A stretch of 64,000 nucleotides of DNA. It comes from Bacteroidota bacterium. Its GTDB lineage: Bacteria > Bacteroidota > Rhodothermia > Rhodothermales > UBA10348. The DNA is taken from assembly GCA_022567305.1 (NCBI GenBank), contig JADFHF010000012.1, forward strand, positions 1 through 64,000. Direction: 5' to 3'. Shown here piece after piece: positions 7,894 to 42,256 of this stretch. Made by a program: the position numbers and the translations under genes. How positions within the stretch are numbered: position 1 is the stretch's first letter; each line of letters begins with the position of its first letter. The notes under the pieces were generated by a model. The model saw nothing but the letters and a program-made list of their open reading frames with translations. It ran no database searches and was not told the DNA's origin.

Positions 7894-8040
7894 AACGGGA
7901 AATAGATGTTATCAAATAGTGAGAGAAATTCTTTCAGGTTCTTTTCGTAGAACCCATTTTCTTTGTACGGTTATTCTAGCTGAAACAAAGACGGTCTTGA
8001 TCCCGCCTGGTCAGGCCAAAATAGTTATTCCATAAAAAAA

Positions 8041-8063
8041 GCACAGCCGCCAGGCGGCCGTGC
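8041..8063. terminator. Rho-independent terminator (bidirectional form)
   Basis: GCAC-A-GCCGC pairs with GCGGC-C-GTGC around a CAG loop, with an A-run to the left (8034-8040) and a T-run to the right (8066-8070). It could stop transcripts from either direction. It lies downstream of the small membrane peptide and purF on the minus strand. Confidence 0.8.
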
Positions 8064-8135
8064 GATTTTTCATTCAAGGTGGGCGTCGCTACGCTATCTC
8101 GTCTTTCTAATTTAAGGGGGAATGCTGAGCAGTGG

Positions 8136-8228
8136 CTATAGTAACTGAAACACAATCAGGACAATTAAACCAACCACTCCGGCTCCCAATGTCATTGCTC
8201 TGATAGCGCGATCTACAGGATTACGCAT
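8136..8228 (-). CDS. Possible 30-residue single-pass membrane peptide
   Basis: From the ATG at 8228 the minus strand encodes MRNPVDRAIRAM followed by a hydrophobic helix (TLGAGVVGLIVLIVFQLL). A clear terminator follows 73 bases after the stop, which supports a real leftward transcript. It sits downstream of purF. The Shine-Dalgarno is weak and I know no family. A longer frame from 8330 exists, but the extra part looks random. Confidence 0.35.
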   Translation of the reverse strand: MRNPVDRAIRAMTLGAGVVGLIVLIVFQLL

Positions 8229-8506
8229 GATGGATGCAGCGGTTAAACTTCGGTTGCTTCGGTAGGGAATTTCGAATGTACAAACCTTGTTAGGGTATCG
8301 AAACGAATTTGCGTCAATATAAGTACACATATATAATATTCACAACTTGTTCACAAAAAAGATTGGCTTATCCACAAACCGCCATTTGAGATCACTTCTG
8401 GTATAGATCGGAGTGATGGAGTGGAGATAGTGGGTCTATAACTCGGCGGAAACCGGAGTAACGAGAACAGAAATGCGTCTGGAATCTATCGACTACCGAC
8501 GAAGAA

Positions 8507-10009
8507 TTACCATTCGTTTTCGTCCTTTGAAACGCCCATACTTACGGGCACCGGGTACTTCGCAGTGAAGCAGGCGTCGCAGTATCCGAGCTCGCTTTCA
8601 TTAGCAGATTTCACTGCACGAATGAGACCCTCTATCGAGAGATAAGCCAGTGAATCTACTTGGAGCCATTCCTTCATTTCCTCTAATTCACTTCCGTGTC
8701 TTGTAGCAAATAATTCTTCGTGACTCGGAAAATCCATGCCATAGAAACATGGACTGATCACGGGTGGAGAGGCCACACGAAAATGAACCTCTTGTGCGCC
8801 CGCATTCCTAACCATTCGGACGAGCTGTTTCGCAGTGGTTCCACGAACGATCGAATCATCGATCATCACGACAATCCGATCTCGGAGCACGCCGGTCACC
8901 GTATTGAACTTGCTCCGAACCTTGCGCTCACGCGAATCTTGACCGGGAGCAATAAAGGTTCTGCCGACGTAATGATTTCGAATGAGTCCAATCTCAAATC
9001 GACAATCAAGTTCGAGTTTCTTGCACTCAGAGACATACCCCAACGTGGCTGTGTTCGATGAATCAGGGACAGATATTACGATCGGACAAGAACCGTCTTT
9101 TCCTGGCGGGGGCGGGGGAGCATCATGTGCGAGTTCCTTACCGATTTTTCTTCTCACCTTGTCGACCGACTCTCCGAAGATTTTCGAATCCGGCCGGGAG
9201 AAATACACATACTCGAAGATGCACTGACTTATCCCGAAATTCCGGCCAAGGTGATAACTCTGAAACTCTCCATTCTCACAACCGGCCCGGTTGATGACCA
9301 ATATCTCGCCGGGCTCGACGTCGCGAATGTACTCGGCGCCCACCAGATCGAATGCGCACGTTTCGCTGGCAATGCAGTAGGCCTTTGTACCATCCGGTCC
9401 GGCTCCTTCGATGGCTCCGAGGGCTAAAGGTCTGAAGCCATTTGGGTCTCGGACGGCGATCAATGACTCATCCGTCAGAAAGACGAGAGAGAACGCGCCT
9501 TCAACCTGTGTGAGGGCATCGATAATTTTGTCTTCCTGCCTTCGTCGTGTGCTCTGGGCGACCAGATGAAGAACGAGTTCCGTGTCGCTTGTGCTCTGGA
9601 AGAGGGTGCCCCGTTCGATGAAAGTCGTTCTGAGCTCACGAGCATTGGACAGATTTCCATTGTGTGCGAGGGCTAAATTTCCGTCTCGGTATTGAACCAC
9701 GAAGGGCTGAATATTAGCCCGATTGTTTGTAGATCCGGATGTTGAATACCGATTGTGACCGATTCCGGATGTTCCCAACAACTTGGAATTGAAGATTGAT
9801 GGTTTCTTGAACACATCGAGAACGAGACCATTACCCTTGTGAACGGGCATCACCATCTTCTGTCTCGCCTCGTCGTAAACCGACGTCACGATACCAGCGG
9901 ATTCCTGTCCTCGATGCTGCAGTGCATGAAGCCCGAGATAGATCTGATTCGCAGCGTTGTTGGCATTAACAATGCCAAAGATGCCACAGTACTCTTTGAT
10001 CTGGCGCAT
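8507..10009 (-). CDS. purF: Amidophosphoribosyltransferase
   Basis: The enzyme converts PRPP and glutamine to phosphoribosylamine, the first step of purine synthesis. The start at 10009 (MRQIKEYCGIFG) has a GGGA site about 9 bases upstream and leaves a 7-residue propeptide before the nucleophile Cys8. The N-terminal Ntn glutaminase domain contains ALQHRGQESAG and GHNRYSTSG. The C-terminal PRT domain has VVMIDDSIVRGTT. Cysteines at GISQCIF, SPCFYG and the CDAC pair match the ligands of the Bacillus-type [4Fe-4S] form, so an oxygen-sensitive cluster is likely. About 500 residues, normal length. Confidence 0.95.
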   Translation of the reverse strand: MRQIKEYCGIFGIVNANNAANQIYLGLHALQHRGQESAGIVTSVYDEARQKMVMPVHKGNGLVLDVFKKPSIFNSKLLGTSGIGHNRYSTSGSTNNRANIQPFVVQYRDGNLALAHNGNLSNARELRTTFIERGTLFQSTSDTELVLHLVAQSTRRRQEDKIIDALTQVEGAFSLVFLTDESLIAVRDPNGFRPLALGAIEGAGPDGTKAYCIASETCAFDLVGAEYIRDVEPGEILVINRAGCENGEFQSYHLGRNFGISQCIFEYVYFSRPDSKIFGESVDKVRRKIGKELAHDAPPPPPGKDGSCPIVISVPDSSNTATLGYVSECKKLELDCRFEIGLIRNHYVGRTFIAPGQDSRERKVRSKFNTVTGVLRDRIVVMIDDSIVRGTTAKQLVRMVRNAGAQEVHFRVASPPVISPCFYGMDFPSHEELFATRHGSELEEMKEWLQVDSLAYLSIEGLIRAVKSANESELGYCDACFTAKYPVPVSMGVSKDENEW

Positions 10010-26383: not shown

Positions 26384-28632
26384 TTATTGCTGACACAATC
26401 CTTTTGTACGATGCATTACCGTCAATACCAGAGGCAACAGCACAAGATCTCCAAATAACGCTCCAACAACGGCGATTGATGTAAGAAGTCCAAAGTAGAA
26501 GACAGTTTTGACCCCAGCCAGCATGAGAATGGAGAATCCGAACGCCAGTACAATGCTTGTGAAGACGATCGATCGTCCTACGTGAGCCACGGTTTTTGTA
26601 AGGGCATCATCGGGACTGAGCGAAGCGGTCAGTTCCTGATACCGGACGAGAAGATGGATCGTATCATCGATCGCCACTCCCAGAACGATGGCCGCGACCA
26701 TGGCAGTGCCCATATCCAGCGGAATTCTAGCGATGCCCATTACACCGATCATTAAAGCGACCGGGATCAGGTTGGGCACCATCGCAATAAGTGCGAGTTT
26801 GAAATCGCGGATAAACAACCAGAAGAGTAAGAATACAAGGACGATCGCCAAGTAAAAGCTCTGAACTTGTGCCTCTTTGATATATGTGATCATCCGGGTG
26901 TATAAGGGAGGATACCCGGCCACGCGAGCATCAGCCAATCCTTCAAAATGCTTCTTGGTGAGCTCTTCAATTTGTAGAAGAGTTTTCTTCAGCGCTCGTG
27001 CGCTCATCATCGAACCTGTCAATGTCATACGGCTGGTCGTTCGATCCTCGCTCATCAGCCGATTGAATTCTTCCTCTTCGCGAGCTTCGACCATTCTGAG
27101 TGCAGAGCGTATTTGGGAATTGTTAGTCAGGACGCGATCGTTTCCATATCACGCTGCCGAATACCCCTTTACGAAGGTGTGAAGTCCGAGCGTCCCACTA
27201 ACACCTTCTATGCTCACGACCTCTTCTGAGAAAGCAACCAGAGAGGCCATGATTTTCGGATCTGAGAAACCATAGTCGCCGATTGGTCGAATCGTCACGT
27301 CAACGGACGAATAATCTCCCCAGTTTTCCTCGAGAAAGCGATGATCCCTGGTTACCCGATTATCACTCGGTAGATAACCGAGCGTATACGTATCCACCTC
27401 TATGTTACTGATACCGATGGTCGATACGACGGTTATAACAACCGCCACCATTCCGTATCGAGCAGGATGCCGTCTTACGCTTGAGAGCAGCGCAACAAGC
27501 AAATCTGTCAGTAGAGGTACAGCTCTCGGCCTGTAGCCCCGAGATTCGATAAGCGGCAGCATAGCGGCTGACCATACGAATGTGGCCAGTAGCGCCATGA
27601 CGATACCAATCGCTGAAAAAGCTCCCAACTCTCGATTACCCCGACCCGTGCGAACGAAAGCGTCAGGAAGCCAGCAGCTGTTGTCAGCGACGTGAACAGG
27701 CACGGACGAGCGACCCGGCTCAGGCATTCTTTTGCGAGTGTAAATCGATCTCCACGACGATCTCCTGCTCGCACGGCAAATTCGTTCAGCACATGGATCA
27801 GGTCGGCGATACCCAGTATGGAAACCACCGTCGGCAGCATGGCGGTCACCATGTTGATCTGCCTTCCGGATAGGCCCAGTGCCATAAGCGTAAGCAGGGA
27901 GGCTGTCAGTATTACACCAAACGTTAGCGCGACGAAAGCGACTCGCCGATATAGCAGATAGATTACCAGAAAAATGATGACGTAGCTCACTCCCATGAAA
28001 AGACCGAAGTCGCTTTTGGAGATACGGTTAATGCCCGTGAGGATTACGCCGTTCCCACCCAGATGTACAGCGTCCGTGCCGAGCACGGACGTTGCGGCAT
28101 CTGTAATATTAGAGATGATTCTCTCGCGCTCAGAATCGACATCCTGATCGGCAGCCATACGCGTCCAGATCATCGCCATGGTACCGGCCTCGTTGAGAAA
28201 CCTACCGCCGATTATCGGGGAATCTACGAGCAGATGTTTAAGCATTCGGGGAGGGGTCTCATATTTTTCGAGCACATTCACTACGCGAATTCCGAATGCC
28301 TGTCTCATCAGAACGCGAGCATTGGCGAGCGAGTACCCTCTGTCTATACCTTCGATTTCCTCCAAATCAGCGGTCAGTCGACGAATTTTATCTAGTTCCA
28401 CTCGATTCAACAGTCCGTCTTCATTTAGATACCCGATGACGACCACCTCGTCACTGCCAAACTCGTCGATGAACTCCCTGTAGGTCGTCACCGCAGGATC
28501 GCCCTCAACAAACCAGACCGTCAGGGCGTGGTTAGGCACGGATGCGTATCGGACGTATGACAACCTGAGCACGACGCACAGAATCAGAGCTGCGAAGTAA
28601 ATCCATCTGTATTTAGTCAGGTGCTCAATCAT
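26384..28632 (-). pseudogene. MMPL/RND-family lipid exporter, broken by one frameshift and one in-frame TGA
   Basis: Three pieces add up to one protein of about 750 residues with two RND halves, each with an N-terminal helix, a periplasmic loop and a sterol-sensing-type block. Piece one runs from 28632 to about 27630 (…TAMLPTVVSILGIADLIHVL, then FARVGVI). A one-base loss near 27630 moves the frame, and the sense continues as ELGAFSAIGIVMALLATF. At 27149-27151 an in-frame TGA follows GYSAA, after which the same frame continues YGNDRVLTNNSQIRSALRMV to the end (26384). Relatives export lipids or hydrophobic compounds. The ATG overlaps the preceding PSD-like stop as ATGA. A sequencing error could explain the frameshift but less easily both lesions. 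Confidence 0.85.
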
Positions 28633-29531
28633 GGGACTCTACCTATGGCGTCACCGAGTCGGATGTACGTCTCGAGCTCTTTTTCTGTATTGCTGATGAG
28701 ATCATTATCGAAGACAATCGCTCCTGGCTCGAAGAGGAGGACGATCGTCGAACCACCCAGCCCGAAGAGCCCCTTCCGAGCACTTTTTTCTACATGTTTA
28801 TCCGGGCAATAACGCTGCTGAATGGAGCCGATCGTGAACGCGCCGATTTCGACCATTCCAATCGGACCGAAATGGTCGGAATGAAAAACGGTCACCATCC
28901 GGTGATTTTCCGAATAGAAGGGTACGAGCGTTCGACGCGCGTATGGACTCACAGCGTAGTACTTCCCAGGAACGTTTGCAGCTGGTCCGGGCTTTCCGGA
29001 GTCCGGAAAATGAAAGTGATGATAGTCCGCAAGATAAAGTCGACTAACGAAAGCCGAGCCGTTGTCGAAATCGGCCGCCAATGACTCGTCGCGTACCAAC
29101 TCTCGAAGATCAAACGTTGCGCGCTTTATGCGAAAAGTCGTGTTAGCCTCAATCAACGGATATGCCAACGCACGGCCATCAACCGGCGAGACGCAGACTC
29201 CCGGTGTCGGACATATTGGGCGGTTGGAGAGGTCGATTTCGCGACTGAAGAACTCGTCGAAGCTCACGAACGTCTCGATTGGACGATTCAGATCTGAAAG
29301 GTCGATATTGAGAGCCTCGACAAACGGACCGATACGCCTCCGGCTCCAGTAGGTACTGTTTACCCAACCATAGAACCGCGAAAGCCACTTGTGTCGCAAG
29401 ATCAGTTCGGTCGCCAGGAGCCCGACCCTGGAATTGTAAGACCACGACAGGAACGACTGCGCGTATACGGCCTCAGTGACCAAGCGGCCACTTTCCCGGT
29501 CCATGTATGTCAGATTATCCATTGTGCTCAT
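28629..29531 (-). CDS. Phosphatidylserine-decarboxylase-like enzyme
   Basis: This 300-residue protein is of the pyruvoyl-dependent PSD family. The middle holds PVDGRALAYPL and YLADYHHFHFPDSG, and the self-cleavage site reads GGST at about residue 256 (LGST/GGST class), where the serine becomes the pyruvoyl group. The N-terminal part resembles PSD enzymes with an added domain (FVSFDEFFSREID). In the usual pathway it makes phosphatidylethanolamine. Here no phosphatidylserine synthase is adjacent, while a DUF3419 transferase that adds an amino-acid headgroup is in the same operon, so a different headgroup may be the substrate. It overlaps both neighbours by ATGA. Confidence 0.85.
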   Translation of the reverse strand: MSTMDNLTYMDRESGRLVTEAVYAQSFLSWSYNSRVGLLATELILRHKWLSRFYGWVNSTYWSRRRIGPFVEALNIDLSDLNRPIETFVSFDEFFSREIDLSNRPICPTPGVCVSPVDGRALAYPLIEANTTFRIKRATFDLRELVRDESLAADFDNGSAFVSRLYLADYHHFHFPDSGKPGPAANVPGKYYAVSPYARRTLVPFYSENHRMVTVFHSDHFGPIGMVEIGAFTIGSIQQRYCPDKHVEKSARKGLFGLGGSTIVLLFEPGAIVFDNDLISNTEKELETYIRLGDAIGRVP

Positions 29532-30658
29532 CGTTGGATCTCATAAAGGGCGTATTCGCGGTGTGCCGGAAAAGCATCGCCGAGGGCAAGCCCCCTGGAG
29601 ACTCCATCCGACAGCATGGGGCCGATCGTGAACGAATCGAGGCCGGCAGCGCGCATTGTTTGTGCAAAGTGGAACAAAGCCGATCGTCCAAAGCCCACGC
29701 GTCTGGCTATTGTTTCGCGAGTGGCGCCGGTGAGATAAAATAGCACGTGCTTCGAACGCCGCAGCTGCTGCAGGAATCGCACTTTGCTCAAGAGATGGTC
29801 CCGTCCCCCCATCCTTCGCACCGCTTCAGAAGGATCAAGAAACGCACCCGACAGGCCAGCGAGTTGATCATCCGCGTCGTATACGAGGCAGAAGAGCTGG
29901 TCATGGAGAGCATAACGGAGTCCCGCATGGAGCCTCTGAAAGCGCTCGACTGTAATCGGCGTGTATCCTAGAAAATCAGAGAACGAGTCAGCAAGAACCT
30001 CATGTATTCGTCTGATCTCCTCTTTAAACGAAGCCTTTGTAACCGGCTTGAAGCGGTACCCGAGTCTGATAAAGCGCTGGTAGCATTCTTCGTGTGGAAG
30101 CGAGAGTCGATCAATATCTTCCTGACCTTTTATGTCAATCGATTCCCAACGCTTTTTGACAGTAAAGCCATAGCGCTCGGCAAAATCCGGATAATAGGAT
30201 TTGTTGTAGGGTTCACTCTGGGGCCTGGGCTGAATGAATCCCTGCGTCATCCAGCGGTATCCGTGCCAGATATCGAAATTTATCGGAGCCCAGATGCGAT
30301 TTACTCCGTGCTTTGCTTCGAGCCATTCGAGTGCACGATTAAATAGGTCTTCCGCTGCCGCGAAGTCTTCAACGCATTCGAAATTTCCAATCGTACCTAC
30401 CTGTTCGCCGTCGCCGTCTTGAAGGGAGCCGTTGACGAACGCGGAAATTCTTCCCAATGTCGTTCCGTTGGTCCTTGCCAGGAGATGCCGACTGTCGCCT
30501 GCCTTCCGGTCATAGAGGGTCTCGGAAGACGCGAAGTTGGCGAGCTGTTTCTTCCGGAAGGGCGGAATCCACGCGGGATCCGAACAATAGAGTCGATAGA
30601 CGAAGTCGACAAACTCCGTTGCCAGCTCAAGGTTGGTATTGATGCAGAATATTCCCAT
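29528..30658 (-). CDS. GNAT-fold acyltransferase-like protein
   Basis: This is a 376-residue protein of the type annotated as GNAT-like N-acyltransferase. The N-terminal third resembles a degenerate GNAT lobe (ARTNGTTLGRISAFVNG, then IGNFECVEDFAAAEDLFNRA). The core strands contain PINFDIWHGYRWM and RFIRLGYRFKPVTKASFKEE. It probably acts on an acyl or amino group; the substrate is unknown. The gene lies 12 bases downstream of the UbiA-like gene and overlaps the PSD-like start by four bases (ATGA). No signal peptide is present, so it is cytoplasmic or peripheral. Confidence 0.65.
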   Translation of the reverse strand: MGIFCINTNLELATEFVDFVYRLYCSDPAWIPPFRKKQLANFASSETLYDRKAGDSRHLLARTNGTTLGRISAFVNGSLQDGDGEQVGTIGNFECVEDFAAAEDLFNRALEWLEAKHGVNRIWAPINFDIWHGYRWMTQGFIQPRPQSEPYNKSYYPDFAERYGFTVKKRWESIDIKGQEDIDRLSLPHEECYQRFIRLGYRFKPVTKASFKEEIRRIHEVLADSFSDFLGYTPITVERFQRLHAGLRYALHDQLFCLVYDADDQLAGLSGAFLDPSEAVRRMGGRDHLLSKVRFLQQLRRSKHVLFYLTGATRETIARRVGFGRSALFHFAQTMRAAGLDSFTIGPMLSDGVSRGLALGDAFPAHREYALYEIQR

Positions 30659-30670
30659 GGCGGAGCTCGC

Positions 30671-31669
30671 TCAGTTTGTTAAAATGCTACCCGCGATGAC
30701 GTAGTCCAGAATGACGGCCACGAGCGTCGCAAGAGCAAAAAATTCGGCAAAGGGTTGTAATCTGGACGTCCGCGGAGATGGGTGCCAAAGAAATCGGACG
30801 TACCCAACGACCACGATGGAAAATGCACCTATCAGGATCGTCGTGAACGCTGCGGACATCAGATCAATCCTGTAAAAGTAAATACCGAGTCCCAGTGCAA
30901 GCGCCTGCGCTAGTCCGGCGACGAGGACTGCACCCGATTGACCGAAGATCTGGGAGTAAGTGACATAGGCGTTTTCTTCTTCGGCCGAGCGGATTTTTCG
31001 CGCAATTTCCCATGCGAAGAAAGGCGCCCAGATCATGGCGATCGATAGGAGCGTCTTGGCCCAGTCGATGTGATGGATTTCCATTCCTGACTCCACAGAG
31101 AATAGGATGGCCAGGTAGAGGAGCATGAGGGGAATGATGGGGTTATGCGTTGCCAGATTGAGGAGCAGATGCTGTCTCAGAAGACCGGGCATAAAGAAAT
31201 AGACGAACATGAGCAGTGCGTACCCGAGCACAGCCAGGGCCGCCCAGAAAGCGTTGCCGGCCTGGCTGTTGACGAGCACGAAAAGCACGATCAGGACTAC
31301 GAGACTGAAAACGAGGTCCGATTCCCGAACCCGTCCAGACGGCAGAGGACGGTCACTGAATAGCTGCCGATCGATTTCTCTGTCCTTCAGTTCATCCATC
31401 AAACGCAGGATGAGCAGCAGACTGAACACACTCCAGATTCCGATCAATGAGTATTTGGATACGAGGTTGACGCGCGTATCATGAATGTTGGCAAGCACCG
31501 TCGACTGGCCGAGGAAAATGATTGCGGCCCTTACTAGACCAGCAGGAATAGGATACGTGTCGGAGAGGTAGGCCCTTGTTCTCGCCATGTATCCGACAAG
31601 CGATTGCCCGATGGCGGGGAGGCCGCCATCTCCTCTGGTGCTTGATAGTATGCCGGTATTCTTTTTCAT
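30671..31669 (-). CDS. UbiA-family prenyltransferase-like membrane protein
   Basis: From the ATG at 31669 (332 residues) there are about eight to nine membrane helices. The first conserved loop reads RLMDELKDREIDRQLFSDRP, a UbiA-type Asp-rich motif that binds Mg2+-prenyl diphosphate; the second, in the region of HHIDWAKTLL...AWEIARKIRSAEEE, is less regular. UbiA enzymes put a prenyl chain on an aromatic or glycerol acceptor. The acceptor here is unknown. The ATG overlaps the upstream stop (ATGA at 31666-31669), so the gene is translationally coupled to the phytol-kinase-like gene. Confidence 0.75.
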   Translation of the reverse strand: MKKNTGILSSTRGDGGLPAIGQSLVGYMARTRAYLSDTYPIPAGLVRAAIIFLGQSTVLANIHDTRVNLVSKYSLIGIWSVFSLLLILRLMDELKDREIDRQLFSDRPLPSGRVRESDLVFSLVVLIVLFVLVNSQAGNAFWAALAVLGYALLMFVYFFMPGLLRQHLLLNLATHNPIIPLMLLYLAILFSVESGMEIHHIDWAKTLLSIAMIWAPFFAWEIARKIRSAEEENAYVTYSQIFGQSGAVLVAGLAQALALGLGIYFYRIDLMSAAFTTILIGAFSIVVVGYVRFLWHPSPRTSRLQPFAEFFALATLVAVILDYVIAGSILTN

Positions 31670-32358
31670 GTCGAAATGACTTCCAAGAGCGTGTTCAATA
31701 GAAAGAAGCCGCCCAGCGGAATCAAGAGATTGTCTAAGCCTCGCCAAGCGATTGCCTCGAGAAGTGTCACGAAAATGGCCAGCGTAACGGCGATCACAAT
31801 CGCCTCAAGATGGCTCAACGCGAGGAAGTAGACGACGGGGAAGTATGTGCCGGCTAGACCGACAATGAAGAGTGCGCAGGAACCTTGCAAACTCTTCATT
31901 CCCCCGGGGGCTTCGTAACAAACACTGCCGTAACGAGTCCCTACCACTGCCGCGGCCGCGTCTCCAATCGTCAGATAGATAAGAGGAATGCAGTAGTAAA
32001 TCGGGTTTCCATTGCTGAGCAGGAACAGCACCGCGACCGCTGCCGGGAAGCACAATTCACCCATAGAATTACGACCTACTCCTCTGAGAACGGATCCTGC
32101 CGTTTTGGCCAGAGCTGGAATCCATCTAAGAGCCGCCAGTACGACGAAGGCGCTGACGCAGATAATGAGGACAGGCCAAGCGGACTCGAATATCCAGGGG
32201 AATGTCATAGACACCATGCCCATGGTCACATGGACCGTCTTTCGGGACGTCTCGGTTCGAATTTGGTATCTCTCCGCCAGGAAGTGAAGCATACCGATGA
32301 GGCTGCACAGCAGAACGAGGACGATTCCGATTCCTATCCATTCACTTGAGACATTCAT
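31666..32358 (-). CDS. Phytol/dolichol-kinase-like CTP-dependent membrane enzyme
   Basis: This 230-residue protein has about seven helices. It shows the SEC59/VTE5/CDP-diglyceride-synthase-type marks: SRKTVHVTMG near residue 40 (the KxxH pattern), and IYLTIGDAAAAVVGTRYG followed by PGGMKSLQGS, the nucleotide-binding end. Relatives phosphorylate phytol, dolichol or undecaprenol with CTP, or make CDP-lipids. The adjacent UbiA-like gene makes an isoprenoid alcohol/diphosphate role plausible. It starts 36 bases after the DUF3419 gene. Confidence 0.8.
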   Translation of the reverse strand: MNVSSEWIGIGIVLVLLCSLIGMLHFLAERYQIRTETSRKTVHVTMGMVSMTFPWIFESAWPVLIICVSAFVVLAALRWIPALAKTAGSVLRGVGRNSMGELCFPAAVAVLFLLSNGNPIYYCIPLIYLTIGDAAAAVVGTRYGSVCYEAPGGMKSLQGSCALFIVGLAGTYFPVVYFLALSHLEAIVIAVTLAIFVTLLEAIAWRGLDNLLIPLGGFFLLNTLLEVIST

Positions 32359-32394
32359 GTCACTTCTCGTTTTATCGGAATGACGTTGGTTTCG

Positions 32395-33531
32395 TCAGCA
32401 GATTTCCTCAACGACGAAATCGCTGTAGAAAAAGGTTTTATTCACTCGGTGCAATCGGCGGCTGAGCCTTGAAAGTGGACGCAGCCTGTCGGCCATGGAC
32501 TCGGGACGACGCCTGGAAACAAGCAGGTTCCAATAGGCCAGCCTGCCTCCCGAGCGACCGATGAATAGCAGTCGATCAAGCAGGCGATGGTAAATGCTCT
32601 CTGACATGTACTCGAAGATGTCACTGAGATTGAAGCGATCGATGCTATTGCCAGGGTAATCTTTCGCCAGGGATTCGATTGAGCCGCATCGTAACTCCAG
32701 CCGGTCCAGGTTGGCTCTAATCACTTCGAAATTCTCTTCGCGCAACGCGTACGGGAGAGCTGTTCGATGGCTGCCCGTTAGGATCCAGATCAGATATGGA
32801 TTTTCGGATGGATCAAGAATTGAAAATGCACGATGGGCCCTGGACAGAATCTGGTCGCTCACACTCCCTTCCACGTAACGGAAACACCCCTCTTCCCGCC
32901 CCAGAAGGGACATCGTAACGCGCGAAAAAAAGCAATGGGAGAAGAATTTCCATCTCCATGTATTCCAATGGCTTTGATAAAATCGAATCCTATCGGAGCT
33001 CGATTTCGGCAGTAGCATCTCGTGCACACGATGCTTCCCATGAATAAGAGGAAGCACCCTGCGGCGAAAGAGGGTGAAATATCTTTCCAGTTGGCCGGAA
33101 CCAGAGAATCCCTGTGCGATAGCTTCGCCCTGCCCATCCCAAAAACGTCTGCTATCGCTGGACAGAAGAGTGCGGCATCGACTGTAGAGCCTGTCCCGTC
33201 TTAAGCTAGGCCGCGACCCCACCAGCTCGAGAAGTTCTCCGTGATCCAGCTCACGGTAAGCGGCCATGCGGAGCTCCAGGCAGGCGAGTTGTGCGGGATT
33301 CAGGTCGAGTGCGATCACGTGCTCCGGATCTCTGGTCAGGAGAGCGAGTGTATTATCCCCTGCCGAAGAGATGGACAGACACGTATCGCCCGGTTGGACA
33401 TTGAGTCCATCCAGGAGTACGTCGGTGTCTTCCCAGCACTGCGCGTATTTGATCCCGGCTGTATTTACCTGCCATTCAGAAACAGATGTTTCGCGAAGCA
33501 TCTCGTTAGTATTTGTGAGAAAGCCGATCAT
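32395..33531 (-). CDS. DUF3419 (BtaA-like) S-adenosylmethionine 3-amino-3-carboxypropyl transferase
   Basis: From the ATG at 33531 (378 residues), the start overlaps the upstream stop as ATGA; an earlier ATG at 33564 is less likely. The methyltransferase-like fold has GIKYAQCWEDTDVLLDGL and the AdoMet loop LSISSAGDNTLALL, then IALDLNPAQLACLELRM, the DUF3419 signature. The middle (about 190-230) and end hold the extra helices. BtaA of this family transfers the aminocarboxypropyl group of AdoMet to diacylglycerol, the first step to the betaine lipid DGTS. No BtaB N-methyltransferase is adjacent, so the product may be a non-methylated homoserine lipid. Confidence 0.85.
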   Translation of the reverse strand: MIGFLTNTNEMLRETSVSEWQVNTAGIKYAQCWEDTDVLLDGLNVQPGDTCLSISSAGDNTLALLTRDPEHVIALDLNPAQLACLELRMAAYRELDHGELLELVGSRPSLRRDRLYSRCRTLLSSDSRRFWDGQGEAIAQGFSGSGQLERYFTLFRRRVLPLIHGKHRVHEMLLPKSSSDRIRFYQSHWNTWRWKFFSHCFFSRVTMSLLGREEGCFRYVEGSVSDQILSRAHRAFSILDPSENPYLIWILTGSHRTALPYALREENFEVIRANLDRLELRCGSIESLAKDYPGNSIDRFNLSDIFEYMSESIYHRLLDRLLFIGRSGGRLAYWNLLVSRRRPESMADRLRPLSRLSRRLHRVNKTFFYSDFVVEEIC

Positions 33532-36233
33532 ACCATAACCTTTATATTTTTGTCTGACGTGCACTGATTGTCGCTTGAGAGACGCCGTACCCTTCCCGTG
33601 CTTCCGTCCATCTCCACGAGATCGCCGTCGCGAAGCCAGTTCGTTACCCCGGACAGCGAGACAATCGACGGGATTCCCAATTCACGCGAGACGATCGCAA
33701 CGTGTGACAAAACGCTTCCGCGCTCGACCAAAACGCCGGCGCAGACGGGAAACAGCATGACCCAACCTGGATCCGTTCTCTCTGCTACGAGAATTTCACC
33801 GCCTTTCAGATCGACTGTATTTGGATCTTTGACAATGCGAACCCGTCCCCGTATTCGACCGGGTGAACACGCGATTCCGCAGCACGAGTCATCGGCTGAG
33901 TCCGCACGAAGTACAACGTCAGATGTTTGAAAGGTGTGGCCAATATTTACGTTGCCTTGTGTTATGAAACGGTCTGCCGGGGAACAATCACTATACTGTT
34001 CAAAGTTCGTTTTGCGGAGTACTGCTAATCCCTCGAGATCCGTTGTCGTTGCCGTGCCGTCAACGAACCCCAGGATCTCGTGTAATTCGAGATAGAAGAT
34101 GTTGCGCGGGTGAGAAAGAACGCCGTCTGCATGGAACCGGTGTCCGATTTCTACGAAGACACGCCTTACCATTCCAAACGCACGTGTTCTCTCAAATCGC
34201 AGATTCTCTCGACCGGTAACTCGCGCGCGCGCATGCTTGAGCACCCATGCGAATACGCATCTACGCAGCGGGTGGCGCCGTAACGACCGTGAAATGTACC
34301 GTTCGATTTGTCGCCTCTGGTCCGGAATAGAAATATCCGATCCAGGGCTCTTGGACGATAGGATGTAGCGAGCAGTCTGTCCGATGGATCGGAGGAGGAG
34401 GTTTGGATCATCGATAAGGGTAAAACTCTCCAGCTTCAGCTCATCCAGACAGCGATCCCCGAATTTGGCCAAATAGTCTTGAAAAAGACGGAAAAGCCGG
34501 GGATAATTGGCGAGTACGCTAACCGTTTCGGGTCCTGATCCAGAAATCAGATTGTCGACCAATTCGGGCCGTGAAGCGGCAAGTGAAGCCATTTCCCGGA
34601 TACGTCGCGCAGGTTCTGTACTGATTACTCCACCGTCACTGATGAGTAAGGCATTCTCCAAATGATTCTTATCAGGCAGCCAAATGGACACAAGCTTTTT
34701 CAGCACGCCGTAGAAAATCATGGCAAAAAAATCGTTGATAATTGGCGCATCCCATTTTCTAAGTAGCTGTTGCTCCAGGAAGCGGTAGTAATCGGTGAGT
34801 TCGTCGATGCGGAGGATTTCGAGGCTACCGCCTGGTGGAATCAAGGTGTTGTTCAGCCGCTCGTAAAATGCTCTGCTTCGACGCCGTAACGTGAAATGGT
34901 TGTAGATCAACCCGCAGATCGCCCCAAGGAACCGTGCTCCGTCACGAACCCGTTCGCTCGTGGACTGAACAGGGCTTGAGTCCACTGCGTGTTTTGGGAG
35001 CGATTCATCTAGCCCCAGCATTTGGGTGTGGAATTTCCAAGTGAATTTTGATCCGGGCAACAGACAAAGCAAGCGATACCAGTTATGAACGTTGTAGTAC
35101 ATGCGCCCGCGTATCAGGCCGATCATGGCGCCGAAGCAGTCCTCATACGCGGCGATCGTCTTTCCCGACACCCACATAAAGCGGGCGAAACTACGGTAAA
35201 CCTCTTCATATGCACGCCTGGCGAATGAAAACGTCAACGGCGTCGTAACGCCTCCGTAGCTCTCCACAAGATTCGTATTGTCCCAGACTGCAGGTTTTCC
35301 CTCCGGATCGGGCAAGTTGCCGAGAGCAGTAATCGGACGCGATTGAAGCAGATGTATCCGGTCGTCTTCAATCGCCCACTCAATGTCCTGCGGTCGATGA
35401 AAATGGCGACTGCAGACGTCAGCCATAGCTGCTACGGCCCGAACATGTTTGTCGGTAATAACCTGCCTGGAGAAGCGACGGACATGCGTTCGGGACGCTG
35501 CCATCCCGGCTTCGCCGATGGAATCGAAAGAACGTGATCTTCCCTCCTCGGTCAGGAGACGTTCCAGAATGCGACCGTCACGGTCGAGTCGAAACGTGTC
35601 TGCCGAGGCGGCGCCCGATACAAGATCTGTTGCAAGACCGCTGACGGCGCTTACGACAGAGACATCTCTACGTCCGGTTACGGGATCAGCGTCGAAGGCA
35701 ACACCAGAAACCTGGGCATCGACCATTTGCTGAATGAGAACGGCTGGTGGCTGGATTGTCTCTTCGATTTGCTGCGCCTGCGCATAGTCGGATATTCGTT
35801 TGGAAAAGCTGGATCGCCAGATCGAAGTAACAGCATTGAGTACGTCCGATGGATACACGAAAAGGAAGGTCTCGTATTGACCGGCGAAAGAAGCCGATTC
35901 TCCATCTTCAAATACGGCTGACGATCGGACCGCGACTGCTGTGCCGTCAGGACACAGGCGTTTCAGCGCCAAGGTGAGCTGTTTCTCTACCGTGGGCGAA
36001 GGAAAGACGTCGTAACGCCTGGATGTAGGTGAATGACGGCTAGATCGGTGCTTTCGTCTCTGCTGCGTCGCTAAACTGTCGGAAAAAGCTTTCGTAGTGA
36101 GAGCGAACCAAGGAGGAATTGGCAGATTCGTCGTTTGCAACTCAGCAAGAGCTGCCGCCTTACCTCCGATCAATTCGCGCGATCCTCCGTCTTCCGGGAA
36201 TCGTATGATATTCTTGTCGTATGTCGATTTCAT
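33528..36233 (-). CDS. PEP-synthase/pyruvate-phosphate-dikinase-like enzyme
   Basis: From the ATG at 36233 the protein has about 901 residues. The N-terminal PPDK ATP-grasp domain (residues 1-330) has GGKAAALAEL, VAVRSSAVFEDGESASFAGQ and GVAFDADPVTGRRDVSVVS. The C-terminal mobile domain carries the catalytic histidine in ERGSVLSHVAIVSRELGIPS (about residues 835-855). The PEP/pyruvate TIM-barrel of real PEP synthase is absent; the middle 330-800 is another, alpha-rich region. Proteins of this kind phosphorylate unusual acceptors (as in rifampin phosphotransferase). In this operon it may act on a lipid or isoprenoid. Such a role is inference. Confidence 0.8.
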   Translation of the reverse strand: MKSTYDKNIIRFPEDGGSRELIGGKAAALAELQTTNLPIPPWFALTTKAFSDSLATQQRRKHRSSRHSPTSRRYDVFPSPTVEKQLTLALKRLCPDGTAVAVRSSAVFEDGESASFAGQYETFLFVYPSDVLNAVTSIWRSSFSKRISDYAQAQQIEETIQPPAVLIQQMVDAQVSGVAFDADPVTGRRDVSVVSAVSGLATDLVSGAASADTFRLDRDGRILERLLTEEGRSRSFDSIGEAGMAASRTHVRRFSRQVITDKHVRAVAAMADVCSRHFHRPQDIEWAIEDDRIHLLQSRPITALGNLPDPEGKPAVWDNTNLVESYGGVTTPLTFSFARRAYEEVYRSFARFMWVSGKTIAAYEDCFGAMIGLIRGRMYYNVHNWYRLLCLLPGSKFTWKFHTQMLGLDESLPKHAVDSSPVQSTSERVRDGARFLGAICGLIYNHFTLRRRSRAFYERLNNTLIPPGGSLEILRIDELTDYYRFLEQQLLRKWDAPIINDFFAMIFYGVLKKLVSIWLPDKNHLENALLISDGGVISTEPARRIREMASLAASRPELVDNLISGSGPETVSVLANYPRLFRLFQDYLAKFGDRCLDELKLESFTLIDDPNLLLRSIGQTARYILSSKSPGSDISIPDQRRQIERYISRSLRRHPLRRCVFAWVLKHARARVTGRENLRFERTRAFGMVRRVFVEIGHRFHADGVLSHPRNIFYLELHEILGFVDGTATTTDLEGLAVLRKTNFEQYSDCSPADRFITQGNVNIGHTFQTSDVVLRADSADDSCCGIACSPGRIRGRVRIVKDPNTVDLKGGEILVAERTDPGWVMLFPVCAGVLVERGSVLSHVAIVSRELGIPSIVSLSGVTNWLRDGDLVEMDGSTGRVRRLSSDNQCTSDKNIKVMV

Positions 36234-36255
36234 GATGTTTCGCCTCACACGGCAT

Positions 36256-37362
36256 TCAGGCAAGGAGGCGACCCCACTGTGTGGCTACACAGAATCGAAC
36301 GACCTTCTTGAGATATTCCCGTGGATCTGGCAGTTCATAGTCGTATTCCGGAATCGCATTCGTGACGTTGCATCGATCGAACATCTTTGGATAATCAAGC
36401 TGACGGATGGACTTCAGCACGCCTGGGACCTTTGATCCATCTCTGCTTTCAGTAGGATTCGAGAATTGCCCGACCTTCTTTTCAGGAGCAATAACGGGTT
36501 CAACGATATTTCGCAGAGTCCACTTCGGGTCGGTCGTTGCAAATGCGTCGAATACCTCATGAATGAAGTCCGAGAGTGCGATCGTCTTCTCTTCACTCGC
36601 CGTGATGTGATACGTGCATCCGGGACGAAACTGCGTGAGGAACAGCTGACAGATCGTGGTGGCGGCGTAGTCATTAGGAATGAAATTGATAGGATACTCG
36701 GGAGTGCCAGGCAAAACTTGGGCAACGCCATCGTACATCAGTCTCATCGTCTGGTGCGGTGCAGCCATTTTATTGACCGCGCCCGTACGGCTGTTACCGA
36801 GAATTATTGATGGTCGGAAAACAGATACTGGCAAGAAATTGGCAATCGAACGAACGAAGCATTCGGCTTCGTACTTTGACTGCTCATACGTATTGAGGAA
36901 TCCTAGATCGTGTACGAGCTCACTCTCCCGGATTTGGCCTTTTCTCTTTCCGCTCACGTAGGCAGTACTGACATGTCCAAATTGTCGGAGTGACCGACAC
37001 GCGCTCGCAAACTCTGCGACATGACGTGTACCATTGAGATTGACGATACGGGCTTGTTCTATACCCTGGCTGAATCGGGTATCGGCCGCGGTGTGGAGAA
37101 TATGCGTGAGGGATTTCTGTAGTTCTCGGCGATCAGACAGGGCTAGTCCCAAGTCCGACCTGGTGACATCACCTTGTATGACCCGTAATCGCCTGCAAGG
37201 GGACAAGCCGTAGTACTTCCGAAGGAACGTGGAGTGATTTTCGTCAGCACCGCTCTTGTGGACGAGCAGCACCAAATCGGCACTGGAGCGCGCATAAAGC
37301 GCCGGAACCAGTTCACGCCCCATCACGCCTGTCGCACCCGTTATTAGGATTGAACTTTTCAT
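36256..37362 (-). CDS. NAD_binding_4-type reductase (fatty acyl / thioester reductase-like SDR)
   Basis: From the ATG at 37362 (MKSSILITGATGVMGREL) the protein has 368 residues. The Rossmann motif TGATGVMG is at residues 9-16, HILHTAADTRFSQG follows, and the catalytic tyrosine/lysine is in NTYEQSKYEAE. This resembles the male-sterility / thioester-reductase SDR family that reduces fatty acyl-CoA or acyl carrier thioesters to aldehydes or alcohols. It is the first gene of the eight-gene operon and lies 22 bases before the PEP-synthase-like gene. The longer frame from 37533 has no start support. Confidence 0.82.
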   Translation of the reverse strand: MKSSILITGATGVMGRELVPALYARSSADLVLLVHKSGADENHSTFLRKYYGLSPCRRLRVIQGDVTRSDLGLALSDRRELQKSLTHILHTAADTRFSQGIEQARIVNLNGTRHVAEFASACRSLRQFGHVSTAYVSGKRKGQIRESELVHDLGFLNTYEQSKYEAECFVRSIANFLPVSVFRPSIILGNSRTGAVNKMAAPHQTMRLMYDGVAQVLPGTPEYPINFIPNDYAATTICQLFLTQFRPGCTYHITASEEKTIALSDFIHEVFDAFATTDPKWTLRNIVEPVIAPEKKVGQFSNPTESRDGSKVPGVLKSIRQLDYPKMFDRCNVTNAIPEYDYELPDPREYLKKVVRFCVATQWGRLLA

Positions 37363-37472: not shown

Positions 37473-37822
37473 TACTATAAATGTCTGGATAACCATGGGA
37501 GATTCGGGATTTACTCACCGTCTCCTGGTTCAACTATTAAGAGGAAGGCATTTCCAACCGCCGTCTGGAGCCCCAGACGATGATTTATCGCCACTGAAAA
37601 TCAAGACTGTTTTCAAGAAAGAAGTTTACAACTCGGACGTTGCGCCCATACGGAGTGACCGAAGTGGACTTCACTATCTCAGTCGTTTATAACGAGTTCA
37701 GTGGCTATATCCACCTCCGTCTTCAACTCGCATGAGTGAATTCAAATGAGGTGGTCGTGGTACGTGGAACCGATAGTTTATGAGTCCATGGGTAGAGGCT
37801 CTAGACAGTGCCTCCTGAGACG

Positions 37823-38318: not shown

Positions 38319-38597
38319 TCAAGCTTCGTACGACCAGTCGTCCACGACTCCCAGAATCACGACGTTAGCCGGGACGTTATCGCTCTTCATGAGCTGACGC
38401 ACGACCGCTCCTTCACGAGCAACCAGTACCACATCATCCAGGCCCGCGCCGAAGCCTGGATCGATCGCGAGCATATCCATCTCGCCGTCCAGTTCACCAA
38501 ACACGTCCACCGGGTGAACGACAAGGAGTTTGCTACCACGAAAATGTTCGTCTTTTCTGGCGGAGACAATGGTGCCTGTTACTTTACAAAGATACAT
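38319..38597 (-). CDS. EutN/CcmL-family microcompartment vertex protein
   Basis: This 92-residue protein shows the family in order: a first strand MYLCKVTGTIVSARKD, then GSKLLVVHPVD, AIDPGFGAGLDDVVLVARE, and a closing strand PANVVILGVVD. EutN/CcmL proteins form the pentamers that close the vertices of bacterial microcompartments and carboxysomes. No BMC shell hexamer gene is in the window, so it is a lone copy; such orphans are known and may have another role. A terminator follows its stop. A Shine-Dalgarno is not obvious. The neighbouring minus-strand genes encode an AAA+ ATPase and an aldolase. Confidence 0.9.
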   Translation of the reverse strand: MYLCKVTGTIVSARKDEHFRGSKLLVVHPVDVFGELDGEMDMLAIDPGFGAGLDDVVLVAREGAVVRQLMKSDNVPANVVILGVVDDWSYEA

Positions 38598-38787: not shown

Positions 38788-38991
38788 ATGTATTTCACGA
38801 AGGGAATAGAAGCGGTAGCTACCATTACGGAACTTCGATCCAAAACTTCTGAACTGGTTGAACATGCCAAAGGGATAGACCGAGGCATCTTGATTCAGAA
38901 GAACAACGAACCCTATGCAGTTCTCATTTCATATGATGTATACGAAAAACTGTTAAAAGGAAGCGGTTCCGGGGGTAGAAAGAAGAAATAG
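38788..38991 (+). CDS. Phd/YefM-type antitoxin, no toxin seen
   Basis: This 67-residue protein matches the prevent-host-death fold: VATITELRSKTSELVEHA (strand-helix opening), GILIQKNNEPYAVLISYDVY and a basic tail (GGRKKK). The family blocks a Doc or RelE toxin and represses its own operon. No toxin follows: a terminator lies 12 bases after the stop and the next gene is on the other strand. It may be orphaned or used in regulation. The upstream region is A/T-rich (TTATATACT about 50 bases upstream). Confidence 0.8.
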   Translation: MYFTKGIEAVATITELRSKTSELVEHAKGIDRGILIQKNNEPYAVLISYDVYEKLLKGSGSGGRKKK

Positions 38992-41176: not shown

Positions 41177-42256
41177 CTAGGCGATCGTAATACTTTCGTC
41201 TAGATAAACATCCTGAATCGCATTCAGCAATTTGATCCCATCTCTCATCGGCTTCTGGAAGGCCTTACGTCCAGATATCAGTCCCGTACCCCCGGCCCGC
41301 TTATTGATGACGGCCGTTTTCACGGCTTGCTGGAGATCGTTTGAACCGGACGCACCACCCGAATTGATGAGTCCGACACGGCCCATATATCCGTTGGCCA
41401 CTTGGTAGCGGGTCAGGTCAATCGGATGGTCCGTGCTCAGTTCTGAATACATCAATTCGCTGTATTTTCCATACGATCCATTCCCCGAATTGAGCGCTGC
41501 GTAGCCTCCATTCTGTTCGGGCAGCTTCTGCTTCAAAATGTCAGCTTGAATCGTTGCACCGAGGTGATTGGCTTGTCCGGTCAGATCCGCACTGGATTCG
41601 TGATTGACTCCGTCCACTTTGAACGCGGAATTTCGGACGTAGCACCAGAGTATCGTGGCCATCCCAAGTTCGTGGGCATGGGAGAACATTTCGGACACCT
41701 CGACAATCTGTCGGCCGCTATCTTCAGATCCGAAATAAATGGTCGCACCGACGGCGACACAACCCATGTTCCACGCATCATCGATCTGAGCGAAAACGAT
41801 CTGTTCGAACGAATTAGGATAGGTAAGAAGTTCGTTGTGGTTAAACTTCAGAATGAACGGGATCCTGTGCGCGAACTTTCGGGCCACAGAACCAAGTACG
41901 CCAAACGTGGAGGCGACCGCATTGCAGCCGCCTTCAATGGCGAGTGTCACAATATTCTCCGGGTCGAAATAAATGGGATTCGGCGCAAACGATGCGCCTC
42001 CCGAGTGTTCGATCCCTTGATCAACCGGTAAAATGGAGACATACCCGGACCCTGCCAGCCTTCCATTCCCAAAAAGGGTTTGTAGGGACCGAAGAACACG
42101 CGGGTTGCGATCCGAATCCAGGAATACGCGATCTACGAAGTCGGGACCTGGTAGATGCAGGTCGTCTTTCGAAATGGTCGAACACGTATGGTCCAGTAGA
42201 TAAGCGGCCTCATCTCCGAGTAATTCTGCTGTTTGAGATGCGATTACTTCCGCCAT
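41177..42256 (-). CDS. fbaB: Class I fructose-bisphosphate aldolase (DhnA/FbaB type)
   Basis: This 359-residue protein is of the archaeal-type class I aldolase family. Visible marks are [14 protein letters not shown], the conserved loop [14 protein letters not shown] (usual Schiff-base lysine region), and the phosphate-binding end [10 protein letters not shown]...[17 protein letters not shown]. It interconverts fructose-1,6-bisphosphate and triose phosphates in glycolysis and gluconeogenesis. The Shine-Dalgarno TGGAGGG lies 6-7 bases before the ATG, inside a short GAGGGATCCCTC palindrome. Length fits the family (about 350). Confidence 0.92.

Follow-up and report, generated by a model that had tools for sequence, protein, structure and literature searches.

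The window, a stretch of 64,000 nucleotides from a Bacteroidota bacterium of the order Rhodothermales (contig JADFHF010000012.1), carries at 26384-37362 an operon of eight minus-strand genes in the order Red, PEPS, DUF3419, PhyK, UbiA, GNAT, PSD and MMPL. The best explanation, with a probability of about 0.5, is that this operon represents the PSD form of a so far undescribed lipid pathway, which would work by the scheme proposed below. The product is probably an unusual nitrogen-containing lipid built from S-adenosylmethionine (SAM). In many phyla the operon recurs as seven functional slots, in order and on a single strand; one shared pathway is well supported, and its chemistry is what we infer. 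The novelty is the pathway as a set, every enzyme coming from a known family.

Distribution and forms of the operon

A four-sequence DUF3419 alignment scanned against 84,980 genomes gave at least 567 confirmed relatives, of which the best 80 were examined; going by record titles, they come from about 15 phyla, and many of the records are metagenome-assembled. Adding three further genomes from the order, the genomes G046, G007 and G216, the window and two plasmid loci brings the total to 89 loci, which were scored with profiles built for this analysis and which, having been picked by DUF3419 similarity, are not independent. PEPS was found in 79 loci, GNAT and UbiA in 71 each, PhyK in 66, an OleC-like ligase in 61, an HMGR-like reductase in 49 and PSD in 5, all of these being lower bounds because many loci are truncated at contig ends. 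The core genes lie on the strand of DUF3419 in 400 cases out of 402. UbiA, PEPS, DUF3419 and GNAT share one strand in the window, and all three partners of DUF3419 are present in 62 of the 89 loci. Type A, the usual arrangement, runs HMGR, UbiA, PEPS, DUF3419, PhyK, GNAT and ligase. MMPL occurs in six loci and is thus outside the operon core, and de novo clustering of all open reading frames (ORFs) at the loci gave no further widely conserved flanking gene.

That many genomes have conserved the gene set excludes a chance association, and it is almost certain that the genes serve one pathway. The single pathway of the original prediction is thereby borne out by conserved synteny, the check which that prediction had itself proposed. 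Its eight-gene set is not confined to the window genome and is a minority variant of a far more widespread operon that usually has an HMGR-like reductase and an OleC-like ligase, not NAD_binding_4 and PSD. A DUF3419 protein is present in only 6 of 60 relatives, so the operon is patchy, and it has probably spread horizontally. A Roseinatronobacter plasmid bears the same operon, with its genes under generic names only.

For three of the slots, different genomes appear to use unrelated enzymes, a variation read as replacement within one pathway. The reductase slot holds either an HMGR-like protein or the NAD_binding_4 protein Red, the kinase slot a phytol-kinase-like protein, YegS or an APH-like fusion, and the slot of an enzyme that probably acts on a carboxyl an OleC-like ligase or PSD. 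The window operon is the NAD_binding_4/PSD form (type B), in which Red, PhyK and PSD are, at the level of family assignment, the thioester reductase, the alcohol kinase and the carboxyl enzyme. PSD and the ligase (5 versus 61 loci) are never found together. PSD adjoins GNAT in the window, in L035, L038 and L052 and in the distant L132. In L038 an HMGR-like gene lies upstream of PEPS, the position held by Red in the window, while L132 has Red in the HMGR slot, as in the window, and a YegS/DAGK-type lipid kinase with PhyK absent. Two fusions, of HMGR to an EcKL/APH-like kinase in L011 and of PhyK to UbiA in L038, point tentatively to a sequence of reductase, kinase and UbiA. In the DUF3419 tree the type B loci fail to group in a single well-supported clade. 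Matches to Red in L067 and L075 were discarded as reverse-strand large ORFs outside the slot.

Other variants were seen among the loci. The cyanobacterial L032, L072, L080 and L088 have neither HMGR nor PhyK and carry a radical-SAM/SPASM protein and uncharacterised proteins of about 340 and 140 amino acids upstream of UbiA. In the verrucomicrobial L024, L042 and L015 the operon contains a PigE-like aminotransferase and an additional PEPS-like gene, and in L024 and L042 a SnoaL-like gene too. In L067, from a Calothrix relative, an HpaI/GarL-type aldolase (7940-8710) lies between PEPS and DUF3419.

Enzymes, proposed scheme and alternatives

The HMGR-like proteins retain the catalytic residues, and the residue matching human Asn755, counted back from the catalytic Asp, is conserved. 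The HMG-contacting Ser, which in human HMGR is Ser684 and contacts the HMG carboxylate, is replaced by Glu in all 39 readable sequences. HMG-CoA synthase was absent in 28 of 30 host genomes and above the cut-off in one, in a search that detected all four positive controls, and the MEP enzyme DXR was found in 26 of the 30. The HMGR-like enzyme apparently works outside the mevalonate pathway. That the operon supplies mevalonate for isoprenoids, the window holding a degenerate copy, would agree with the retained catalytic residues; it is most improbable given the Glu substitution, the presence of DXR in most hosts and the window genome, in which no HMGR homologue was found anywhere, and it was rejected on the missing HMG-CoA synthase. 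The one gene above the cut-off (G074:C43:54446-55090) is HMG-CoA-synthase-like and possibly a polyketide-type HCS.

The predicted model of the DUF3419 protein has a SAM Rossmann fold plus extra helices (pLDDT 90). The folds nearest to it belong to generic SAM methyltransferases (6ulo at the top, Z up to 13), and Foldseek gave many weak matches, a nocardicin 3-amino-3-carboxypropyl transferase among them; the matches being generic, the fold does not give the substrate. No real sequence relative was found in the PDB, where the matches are 20-residue repeats. Like the BtaA/BtaB pathway, the operon has a DUF3419-family enzyme for the SAM-dependent, here putative, transfer of an aminocarboxypropyl group to a hydroxyl of a lipid, and membership of the BtaA family would suit an operon for betaine (homoserine) lipid in which DUF3419 is BtaA and the other genes are accessory. 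Such a function is very unlikely and was rejected on the tree, the identity and the absence of a methyltransferase. BtaA-type rows are set off from the operon rows by branches 9-10 changes per site long, and Rhizobium BtaA is only 24% identical and is followed by a BtaB-like methyltransferase, with none of the operon genes adjoining. The operon itself has no BtaB and sets DUF3419 among UbiA, PEPS, a kinase, GNAT and PSD. Because of the low identity and long branches, the transferred group and its acceptor are assigned by analogy, by which a SAM aminocarboxypropyl transfer step seems rather likely.

Aminopropylation in Microcin C, where MccD and MccE transfer an aminocarboxypropyl group that is then decarboxylated to aminopropyl, follows the same two-step logic, with other enzyme families and on a peptide-nucleotide instead of a lipid. 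A further PSD lies on a different contig of the window genome, and type B relatives have two or three PSD matches, so the PSD of the operon need not be the housekeeping one. There is an even chance that PSD decarboxylates the aminocarboxypropyl group. The earlier suggestion of an aminocarboxypropyl step followed by decarboxylation is accordingly plausible for the PSD form.

The GNAT family is present in 373 of 394 genomes of the phylum. On contig C19 of the window genome two homologues (E 7e-22 and 2e-22) adjoin a serine palmitoyltransferase gene, which makes this the likely bacterial ceramide synthase family. By homology the GNAT of the operon is likely to be ceramide-synthase-like, and the window protein has a tandem-GNAT fold in the predicted structure. 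The contig C19 locus (L131, 6471-11556) consists of serine palmitoyltransferase followed by GNAT, HAD, GNAT and HAD, in duplicated pairs, and is a probable sphingolipid locus. Caulobacter CerS is an N-acyltransferase, and the operon resembles bacterial ceramide synthesis (Spt, bCerS, CerR) and the Caulobacter ceramide phosphoglycerate pathway in being a several-gene lipid operon with a lipid kinase (PMC11324152, PMC11087976). The N-acyltransferases of the two are probably of the same family. Unlike ceramide synthesis, the operon has no serine palmitoyltransferase, and its amine would derive from SAM, not from serine.

The UbiA protein retains the first motif DExKDxxxD and has ExxRKxR in place of the second Asp motif, so that its donor may not be a diphosphate. 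Its profile is nearest to digeranylgeranylglyceryl-phosphate synthase (E 1e-5, among solved structures) and chlorophyll synthase, both of them O-alkylating enzymes; a DPPR-synthase-type UbiA was dismissed, there being no match to a solved one. The C-terminal half of the type A PhyK matches DUF92 weakly (E 0.002-0.04), the family to which the plant phytyl-phosphate kinase VTE6 belongs. The profile of the N-terminal half finds two further proteins of about 240 amino acids per genome in all four cyanobacterial genomes tested, and no real sequence relative of PhyK was found in the PDB. In phytol salvage the kinases VTE5 and VTE6 supply UbiA-type transferases. The operon has the same pairing of alcohol kinase and UbiA, with a weak DUF92/VTE6 likeness in the type A kinase, and differs in being a bacterial operon with thioester reductase, SAM and N-acyl steps. 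An archaeal-like isoprenoid-ether lipid, for which UbiA would join a prenyl chain to glycerol phosphate, PhyK would salvage or activate prenols and DUF3419 and PSD would set the headgroup, fits the nearest solved structure of UbiA and the additional cyanobacterial proteins, which would be expected of phytol kinases. It is rather unlikely, since neither GGGP synthase nor a prenyl synthase is conserved in the flanks and the reductase slot implies a chain derived from a thioester, not one direct from a prenyl diphosphate.

In PEPS the ATP-binding and phospho-His domains are those typical of the RPH/PigC group, and nearly all relatives keep the His motif. OleC models are the best match of the type A ligase, in 20 of 20 members, at scores below the curated OleC cut-off (in the member shown, 236 against 900 bits). 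This is the likeness to olefin synthesis with its beta-lactone synthetase OleC; by way of difference, OleA, OleB and OleD were not seen among the conserved neighbours and the ligase is absent from the window operon. The product could instead be a diffusible natural product outside the membrane, such as a beta-lactone or a prodigiosin-like compound, the kinases and UbiA merely handling an isoprenoid or alkyl building block. The relationship of PEPS to PigC/RedH ligases, the ligase's proximity to olefin beta-lactone synthetases, the PigE-like aminotransferase and second PEPS-like gene of the verrucomicrobial variants, the sporadic distribution and the plasmid copy all agree with this minority possibility. 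PSD, the YegS lipid kinase, the ceramide-synthase-like GNAT and MMPL all indicate lipid substrates, and neither a carrier-protein megasynthase nor a dedicated regulator is among the conserved neighbours. The lipid kinases, the GNAT and the presence of PSD as a second copy make a lipid product, as originally predicted, probable.

In the proposed lipid pathway, Red would reduce an acyl thioester to an alcohol (1), which PhyK would activate by phosphorylation, the PEPS-like dikinase perhaps adding a second phosphate (2). The UbiA-like enzyme would use the phosphorylated chain to form an ether linkage or the like, for instance to glycerol (3), and the DUF3419 enzyme would add a 3-amino-3-carboxypropyl group from SAM (4). 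PSD would then take off the carboxyl of that group to leave aminopropyl, the OleC-like ligase probably acting on the same carboxyl elsewhere (5), and the GNAT would N-acylate the amine to give a two-chain, ceramide-like aminolipid (6). MMPL would export the lipid, though it is broken in the window (7). The numbering of steps 3 to 6 makes no claim of order, and the scheme in exactly this form is tentative and unlikely to hold throughout.

Several observations weigh against this reading. The PSD form is known from five loci, and the Red and YegS replacements from one or two each. The DUF3419 protein is 24-27% identical to BtaA-type proteins, with very long branches between them, UbiA departs from the two-motif UbiA prenyltransferases in lacking the second Asp motif, and PhyK has no convincing Pfam match, its DUF92-like half in type A being weak. 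The radical-SAM or PigE-like genes that some cyanobacterial and verrucomicrobial variants have instead fall outside the scheme.

The operon in the window and its surroundings

The eight linked minus-strand genes were confirmed with the genes and order originally predicted (Table 1). Read from the sequence, four junctions are 4-bp overlaps of the ATGA type and the others gaps of 12-36 bp. The stop of PEPS is overlapped by the start of DUF3419 (GTATGATC), that of PhyK by the ATG of UbiA, that of GNAT by the ATG of PSD (CGATGAGC) and that of PSD by the ATG of MMPL (CCATGATT). The gaps are about 22 bp between Red and PEPS, 36 bp between DUF3419 and PhyK and 12 bp between UbiA and GNAT. A scan for promoters and terminators gave a signal no higher than in shuffled sequence.

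Table 1. Genes of the operon in the window
Gene	Family	Position	Strand	Remarks
Red	NAD_binding_4/thioester-reductase-like SDR	36256..37362	-	ATG at 37362; ORF opens at 37533 with TTG; reductase slot
PEPS	PPDK_N and phospho-His domain (RPH/PigC-like dikinase)	33528..36233	-	ORF to 36263; His motif LSHVAIVSRELGIP in translation
DUF3419	BtaA-like SAM 3-amino-3-carboxypropyl transferase family	32395..33531	-	ORF to 33564; predicted Rossmann SAM fold
PhyK	phytol-kinase-like membrane protein	31666..32358	-	short form without C-terminal extension
UbiA	UbiA-like membrane transferase	30671..31669	-	ORF to 31747; first Asp motif present, second gone
GNAT	tandem-GNAT N-acyltransferase	29528..30658	-	homologous to proteins adjoining serine palmitoyltransferase
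PSD	PSD-family decarboxylase	28629..29531	-	GGST cleavage motif; second PSD copy of the genome
MMPL	MMPL/RND exporter gene, broken	26384..28632	-	frame switch at about 27616-27634; in-frame TGA at 27149-27151

Family matches were obtained to NAD_binding_4 (E 5e-50), PPDK_N (9e-58) with PEP-utilizers, DUF3419 (PF11899, 3e-65), PSD (3e-46) and MMPL, and UbiA matches the prenyltransferase PRK13592 (E 3e-39). The PhyK, UbiA and GNAT proteins of the window have no convincing match to any Pfam model, and their labels rest on relatives and, for GNAT, also on the predicted fold.

The MMPL gene comprises more than one ORF, and intact homologues (L038, 755 amino acids; L074, 758; L011, 754) match it in two frames. 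With the frameshift and the in-frame stop the exporter is broken or mis-assembled here, the gene being either a pseudogene or an error of the draft assembly (G000, 3.76 Mb in 115 contigs, 95.6% complete). The family assigned to it in the original prediction stands; a single intact gene and a working exporter in this genome are not borne out.

Upstream of the operon a minus-strand gene at 38319-38597 encodes an EutN/CcmL microcompartment vertex protein (E 1e-18), and, with 41177-42256 (also minus strand) and with a DeoC-family aldolase and an AAA ATPase nearby, it may be a fragment of a bacterial microcompartment locus. A Phd/YefM-type antitoxin gene at 38788-38991 (plus strand) has no obvious toxin call alongside.

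Novelty and meaning of the pathway

No description of the operon was found in the literature searched, which left out most subscription papers and all preprints, so that an earlier description is possible; to that extent the cluster is undescribed, as predicted. The same literature held no paper combining DUF3419 with PSD and treats DUF3419 mainly in algae, in betaine lipids and in a fungus. The Lipocone paper (PMC12419801) was dismissed as an earlier description, the matching terms being in unrelated passages.

The seven-slot pathway, whose product has apparently not been described, is found in cyanobacteria, planctomycetes, verrucomicrobia, acidobacteria, proteobacteria and further groups. 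It marks a considerable gap in what is known of bacterial lipid (or natural product) chemistry. An HMG-CoA reductase homologue is apparently employed in it outside the mevalonate pathway. More speculatively, the operons of about 15 phyla could make a new class of membrane lipid, in which an alcohol derived from a thioester by the HMGR homologue or NAD_binding_4 would be phosphorylated and become a non-terpenoid donor for UbiA, and in which a SAM-derived, decarboxylated and N-acylated aminopropyl headgroup would give an analogue of ceramide made without serine or mevalonate. The predicted SAM-derived, ceramide-like lipid is open to test in cultured hosts of type A, among them Calothrix PCC 7103, Methylomonas and Desulfobulbus rhabdoformis DSM 8777.

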